From positions 372,001 through 436,000 of the forward strand of contig PADC01000006.1 in the NCBI GenBank assembly GCA_002700385.1: a stretch of 64,000 bases of DNA, given 5' to 3'. This document shows positions 33,291 to 34,308 of this stretch, piece by piece. The notes under the pieces are model-generated. The model did no database searches, was not told the origin of the DNA, and saw nothing but the letters and a program-made list of their open reading frames with translations. The position numbers and the translations under genes are program-made. Source of the DNA: Cycloclasticus sp. (GTDB lineage: Bacteria > Pseudomonadota > Gammaproteobacteria > Methylococcales > Cycloclasticaceae). Within the stretch, counting starts at the first letter, position 1. Each line of letters opens with the position of its first letter.

Positions 33291-33680
33291 ATGAGCACAC
33301 AACCCAATACCGACTTAGAAACTTTCCCTAATCCCAACGTTGAACGGGACTACACGATTCGCATTGATACGCCTGAATTTACTTGTTTATGTCCAAAAAC
33401 AGGTCAACCTGATTTTGCAACATTGACACTTGAGTATGTGCCTAACGAAAGCTGTATCGAATTAAAATCGTTTAAACTTTATATTTGGTCTTACCGGGAT
33501 AAAGGGGCTTTTCATGAAGCCGTCACCAATTCCATACTAGACGATCTGGTTAAAGCCTGTCAACCAAGGTTTATGCGCCTATCGGCTGAATTTAATGTCA
33601 GGGGGGGCGTCTACACCACTGTTGTTGCTGAGCATAAAGCAGATCACTGGGCACCCAGCGTACCGGTTCAATTACCTTAA
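33291..33680 (+). CDS. queF: NADPH-dependent preQ0 reductase (7-cyano-7-deazaguanine reductase)
   Basis: A short (129-residue, YkvM-type) QueF of queuosine synthesis. The nucleophilic cysteine and catalytic aspartate are Cys34 and Asp41 in [11 protein letters not shown], followed by the substrate-binding [14 protein letters not shown]. The start is placed at ATG 33291 (MSTQPNTD); an ORF reading begins four codons earlier. No clear Shine-Dalgarno sequence is visible. It stands alone; queCDE are not in the window. Confidence 0.93.
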
Positions 33681-33742
33681 AAGGTCTTACACGCCCTTTT
33701 CAATTTTTATCAACGGCGTTCAGTTTAAATTCATCACTCTGT

Positions 33743-33794
33743 CTTATCCTTTAACTGCACTTTATAAAGAACTGCTAATGCAGTTAAGGATAAG
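33743..33794 (+). repeat. long inverted repeat enclosing the ribosome-binding site of the His-rich gene
   Basis: The left arm CTTATCCTTTAACTGCA (33743-33759) and right arm TGCAGTTAAGGATAAG (33779-33794) pair over 16 bases with one bulged T. The right arm ends at the base before the ATG and contains the AAGGAT ribosome-binding site. The loop holds CTTTATAAAG, with a TATAAA box (33763-33768). Two readings are possible: a DNA operator straddling a -10 box, or an mRNA hairpin that hides the ribosome-binding site in read-through transcripts only. Confidence 0.75.
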
Positions 33795-34220
33795 ATGATG
33801 AAAAGACTCAACATACTAACCAGCGTTGTTTTTTGTTCTCTCCTCATGATGAGCTCAGTCGCTTTTGCTGATGGCCGCCACTATCACCACTCTCATGGCT
33901 ATCAACATCACCCTCACTATTCATATCATCAGAGCCACCGGTCTGTTGGCTCAACGAAAAAGCGACATTCAAATCATCATGCCTCTCATCAAAAAGGGCA
34001 CATAAAGAAACATTTGAAAAAGCACCATTCTTCCGGTTATTCAACATATCACTACCAGCCCAAGCATCACTCTTATGGGTATAACCGTCCCCGGCATTCT
34101 TATTATAAAAACCACCATGCTCAACTGTTAAATGACATTTATTTAGCCCAACAAATTTACCGTTCGGCGAAGCGCCATCATTATCAAAACCCTGGGCTCA
34201 ACGTGTACTTAAGGTTTTAA
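33795..34220 (+). CDS. secreted histidine-rich small protein
   Basis: A 141-residue protein with a Sec signal peptide (MKRLNILTSVVFCSLLMMSS, cleavage after AFA near residue 25). About 25 of the ~116 mature residues are histidine, mixed with Tyr, Ser and Lys in HH and HxH patterns (~28-105). A distinct C-terminal segment (LLNDIYLAQQIYRSA ... GLNVYLRF) has few histidines and may be a folded or targeting part. I do not recognise a family. Metal binding in the periplasm is inferred from composition. Translation is probably governed by the inverted repeat touching its start codon. Confidence 0.75.
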   Translation: MMKRLNILTSVVFCSLLMMSSVAFADGRHYHHSHGYQHHPHYSYHQSHRSVGSTKKRHSNHHASHQKGHIKKHLKKHHSSGYSTYHYQPKHHSYGYNRPRHSYYKNHHAQLLNDIYLAQQIYRSAKRHHYQNPGLNVYLRF

Positions 34221-34254
34221 TTTTAATATCTTTATCAATCACCTCTTACACAAT

Positions 34255-34277
34255 AAAGGCGGCCATTGGCCGCCTTT
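34255..34277. terminator. hairpin between convergent His-rich gene and htpG
   Basis: AAAGGCGGCC-ATT-GGCCGCCTTT perfect stem of ten pairs between convergent genes. The T-tracts on each side come mainly from the stem end, so it probably acts as a modest bidirectional terminator. Confidence 0.65.
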
Positions 34278-34308
34278 ATAGGATTTGAATCGCGCTAAAA
34301 GTCCGCTG

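Follow-up and report, generated by a model that had tools for sequence, protein, structure and literature searches.

In IS10/Tn10, the transposase is subject to fold-back inhibition, in which transcripts arriving from outside hide the transposase ribosome-binding site (RBS) and transcripts from pIN do not. The RBS of lacZ is occluded by operator sequence in read-through transcripts, by means of a promoter-proximal palindrome at a chromosomal gene. For the T4 late genes e (lysozyme), soc and 49, and for the homing endonuclease I-TevI, early read-through RNAs hide the RBS in a hairpin; at gene e and I-TevI the late promoter lies in or next to the DNA for the 5' strand of that hairpin, giving an RNA that lacks this strand and is well translated (PMC3014915, PMC2988022). 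A literature search for bacterial precedents returned little of use, the T4 reviews being the exception.

A locus that compares with these systems was analyzed in Cycloclasticus, an oil-degrading marine bacterium, within a stretch of 64,000 nt (the window). An inverted repeat covers the Shine-Dalgarno sequence (SD) of a gene for a His-rich protein downstream of queF, and we put the probability at roughly two in three that this repeat is a translational insulator within the gene's own promoter, leaving read-through mRNA silent and locally started mRNA open. As in the T4 gene e class, RNA started upstream is computed to hold the SD in a stable helix, and the upstream gene is co-directional without a convincing terminator. 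There is no homology to the T4 systems or to IS10, only the same logic. The T4 examples are phage genes under temporal control, with late promoters that depend on gp55, whereas here a chromosomal gene, an apparent activator-type box and 16 leaders of one genus are involved. Unlike IS10, the locus has no transposase, element ends or multiple insertion sites, and is a syntenic single-copy locus between queF and htpG; and whereas the lacZ palindrome is the LacI operator, the arms here are the -10 region and the SD region. The features are as follows (window positions).

33291-33680, + strand: queF (Pfam QueF, 5.7e-35), presumed source of read-through
33719-33735, + strand: conserved box TTCAGTTTAAATTCATC at the -35 position, half-sites [A/G]TTCAG and ATTCAT with an 11-bp period; candidate OmpR-family-type activator site
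33736-33743, + strand: 8-nt spacer from the box to TTATCCT, variable in sequence and fixed in length (8 nt in 15 of 15 box-bearing orthologs)
33741-33759, + strand: left arm (anti-SD) of the long hairpin, GTCTTATCCTTTAACTGCA; folds here, with pairing kept in orthologs
33745-33750, + strand: probable -10 hexamer TATCCT, read as TATTCT in two orthologs; it is part of the left arm, and its complement is AGGATA in the SD region
33757-33759, + strand: predicted local transcription start region, placed from the -10 position and the drop in SD opening cost
33760-33778: loop of the long hairpin, 19 nt
33770-33785, + strand: short hairpin AACTGC-TAAT-GCAGTT, adjoining the SD without covering it
33779-33796, + strand: right arm of the long hairpin, TGCAGTTAAGGATAAGAT, containing the SD
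33786-33790, + strand: Shine-Dalgarno sequence AAGGA, within the stem; 7 nt from AGGA to the ATG at 33798
33798-34220, + strand: His/Tyr/Lys-rich protein of 140 aa, fast-evolving, with an apparent signal peptide and the conserved C-terminus NPGLN.YLRF

The 140-aa protein had no Pfam match above the cut-off (best E 0.1). A protein profile search located the gene in 15/18 Cycloclasticus genomes, and the order smc-queF-His-rich gene-htpG is kept in the congeners; outside the genus, the profile gave one weak match across 201 genomes of the order, a low-complexity protein in G097 (E 2e-6). queF is co-directional with the His-rich gene and ends 117 nt upstream of its ATG, and htpG is convergent on the other side. 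Orthologs of the protein have a mean column identity of 34% and lengths of 105-167 aa, the leader being ~83% identical, and the conserved parts of the protein are the signal peptide and the C-terminal LN.YLRF. A preliminary description of this DNA had the repeat adjoining an ATG at 33795, which is probably not the start. As several orthologs have ATA, ACG, ACT, ATT or ATC in its place and retain ATG 33798 at a constant distance from the SD (AGGA to ATG, 7 nt in 15/16 leaders and 8 nt in one), the true start codon is most likely ATG 33798. The stem therefore ends one base before the likely start.

The inverted repeat itself was confirmed, with the SD inside a stem of 18 pairs (including an outermost G-U) and one bulged T. 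As RNA, the segment folds at -22.3 kcal/mol, compared with -13.6 +/- 2.8 for shuffled sequences (z = -3.07; 1 of 200 shuffles was as good). A short hairpin that was absent from the preliminary description competes with the long one for the strand GCAGTT, and is predicted by folding to be the structure remaining in local transcripts. A repeated element or MITE was considered for the repeat and rejected, since elsewhere in the genome there is no second copy of the arm with fewer than two mismatches, and the complete repeat occurs a single time.

Leaders were compared across 16 orthologous loci, taken from 15 genomes plus L045, a further contig from one bin. The long hairpin is able to form in all 16, weakly in G004 (SD pairing 3.3 vs 0.5-0.8 kcal/mol) and moderately in G009 and G017. 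The pairing conservation on which the preliminary description had staked its proposal is thus found among the orthologs. Between leaders the arms still pair despite changed spacing, inner arms and flanks: an inserted A restores a bulge-free stem in G006, and both G010 and G014/G008 retain pairing with altered flanks and inner arms. In four leaders (G005, G011, L045 and G009), ~50-60 extra nt form different hairpins, and the outer arms GTCTTATCC:GGATAAGAC, or variants close to them, are retained over 87-98 nt. The extra hairpins in the L026, L028, L045 and L036 leaders lie between the loop and the SD, some with a UUCG tetraloop. With L045 and G011:C18, one metagenome bin contains the locus a second time in diverged form, which probably reflects a strain mixture.

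The repeat could instead be a DNA operator, with a dimeric repressor bound to both arms around the -10 box. The arms do flank the predicted transcription start, and GTCTTATCC and GGATAAGAC are inverted copies of each other, but a dimeric repressor calls for inverted half-sites at constant spacing. Here the distance from TTATCCT to AGGA is 33-36 nt, or 87-98 nt in the four insert-bearing orthologs, a spread of more than 60 nt, the bulge positions shift, and the genome holds no second close copy of an arm. An operator of this kind, which the preliminary description had offered as its alternative, is accordingly disfavored and in our view improbable.

The core TTATCC:GGATAA is nearly invariant, and since its pairs hardly vary, little covariation can come from the core alone. 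The invariant core is also exactly the complement between -10 and SD, as it would be if the two elements were each conserved separately, queF read-through were negligible and the complementarity silenced nothing. Against this, pairing reaches well past both elements, and the flanks vary in a paired way, with several pair types among leaders at the stem positions flanking the core. When arms were re-dealt among leaders in a permutation, the swapped combinations were less stable than the native pairs (p = 0.0008 for 15 leaders and 0.016 for 7 diverse leaders, p values that ignore the relatedness of the sequences). Occlusion of the SD is, moreover, the most extreme in the window. Complementarity without silencing is therefore considered very unlikely.

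Conservation upstream of the repeat starts abruptly at the box TTCAGnTTnnATTCATC, which is near-invariant in 15/16 leaders and missing in G015; the box is also written TTCAGTTTnnATTCATC. The -10-like motif TTAT[C/T]CT is conserved in 16/16 leaders, including G004 despite the change in its partner strand. A fixed spacer length over variable sequence is what the geometry of a bound protein and polymerase would need, whereas an RNA bulge has no such need, and together the box and TTAT[C/T]CT look like an activator site and a -10 hexamer. No good -35 hexamer is present; as a -10, TATCCT is acceptable. OmpR-family regulators bind direct-repeat sites, which the box half-sites, 11 bp apart, resemble; a regulator of the OmpR-family type is a candidate. 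The pattern of box and -10 was found at one site per genome, at the His-rich locus, except in the one bin with two versions of the locus, and order-wide matches beyond the genus all had 2 mismatches. When the box was used to look for a regulon in the genome of the window, no other gene with a full box was found, and the near matches inspected had no -10 at the right distance.

The preliminary description had placed the promoter at a TATAAA within the loop (33763-33768), with transcripts starting near 33774. The TATAAA is present, but it is private to this genome, most orthologs having TTAACA there, and it was rejected as the promoter; the conserved signature of box and TTAT[C/T]CT puts the start near 33757-33759 instead. 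The box and the -10-like TTAT[C/T]CT in the left arm, at constant spacing, may be a counterpart of the local promoter of T4 gene e, with a predicted start.

Were the promoter upstream of this region, the hairpin would lie in a normal 5' UTR as a conditional riboregulator, toggled between long (closed) and short (open) forms by a ligand, a protein, a small RNA or cleavage. The competition of the two hairpins for GCAGTT is what an expression platform would show, and the loop is partly conserved. Conservation nevertheless ends abruptly upstream of the box, with no conserved promoter there, neither the box nor its fixed spacing is explained, and the loop is wholly different in the insert-bearing orthologs. 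Rfam searches of the window region and of six orthologous loci gave sub-threshold matches only, with no cis-regulatory family at or above its gathering score. On balance we regard a riboregulator as unlikely, though it is the first alternative to a local promoter that we would entertain.

Accessibility of the SD was computed as an opening cost. On read-through RNA, the His-rich gene ranked first of 44 window genes, at 12.9 kcal/mol; the median was 2.6 and the next-highest value 7.3. Local transcripts were modeled as RNA starting 7 nt after TATCCT, and across 15 leaders the mean cost was 9.9 kcal/mol for long transcripts, 2.6 for local ones and 3.0 when the left arm was shuffled. As the 5' end was moved along the sequence, the cost dropped across the -10 hexamer. 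In the modeled local RNA of most leaders, the short hairpin (AACTGC-nnnn-GCAGTT) adjoins the SD and leaves it open, and the insert-bearing leaders form other SD-adjoining hairpins, e.g. ATCCC-TTCG-GGGAT.

An SD and start codon held in a stem would also suit an RNA thermometer, a class (FourU, ROSE) in which the SD helix is marginally stable and opens at physiological temperatures. The helix here is instead long, almost perfect and very stable, with an SD opening cost falling from 16.0 kcal/mol at 4 C to 11.5 at 42 C, and a FourU match lay elsewhere and far below cut-off. The computation nearly excludes a thermometer, to which we give hardly any credence, and no link of the hairpin to temperature or metals was found.

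Across the 16 loci, 43-107 nt separate queF from the downstream, co-directional -10 motif, and no convincing intrinsic terminator was present between queF and the His-rich gene (one weak AT-rich match in G002); read-through is therefore expected. Together with the conserved pairing and the switch in accessibility at the local start, this supports the proposal of the preliminary description that the SD is hidden only in transcripts started upstream. Under the insulator reading, transcription of queF would run through into the His-rich gene. By computation, any RNA carrying the left arm, whether from queF read-through or from a start upstream of ~33745, can fold the long hairpin, which buries the SD. 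Read-through RNA may bury the start codon as well, as TTCATC in the box can pair with the start-codon region (TTCATC:GATGAA). RNA begun just after TATCCT lacks the anti-SD strand and is computed to form the short hairpin only, leaving the SD open. We infer that TATCCT is the native -10 and that an activator bound at the TTCAGnTTnnATTCATC box drives it, in which case the hexamer would do two jobs, as a promoter element in DNA and as an anti-SD in read-through RNA. We further infer that queF transcription does run through, and a purpose, namely that a conditional, secreted His-rich protein would be kept off unless its own promoter fires.

Whether the -10 has been selected both as promoter element and as anti-SD, so that a genus-wide read-through insulator replaces a terminator, with the intervening structures exchangeable and the -10:SD pairing constant, is evenly balanced in our judgment. 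Phages and transposons are known to use this strategy, which in Cycloclasticus would protect an ordinary chromosomal gene; if the reading is true, the T4/IS10 strategy also serves such genes. Packed bacterial genes are often without terminators, and the silence of a conditional gene behind a constitutive one is usually credited to repressors or terminators. Operon predictors and RNA-seq would wrongly call a gene of this kind expressed whenever queF is. Other genomes could be searched for this signature, in which an inverted repeat links a -10 hexamer and an SD and no terminator lies upstream.

Downstream of the His-rich gene, the 3' UTR of most congeners (L027-L031, L036-L040; L026:822-900, - strand) contains a conserved CCTCCC..GTGAGA-n-TCTCAC stem-loop and, beyond it, a terminator (GGCGG...CCGCC) with a T-run. 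The window's own genome has a degraded CCTCCC motif (34221-34283). In the congeners, the CCUCCC motif is unpaired and the region gave a sub-threshold match to suhB/mmgR (RF00519, E 0.0015), and the element is possibly a 3'-UTR-derived small RNA.
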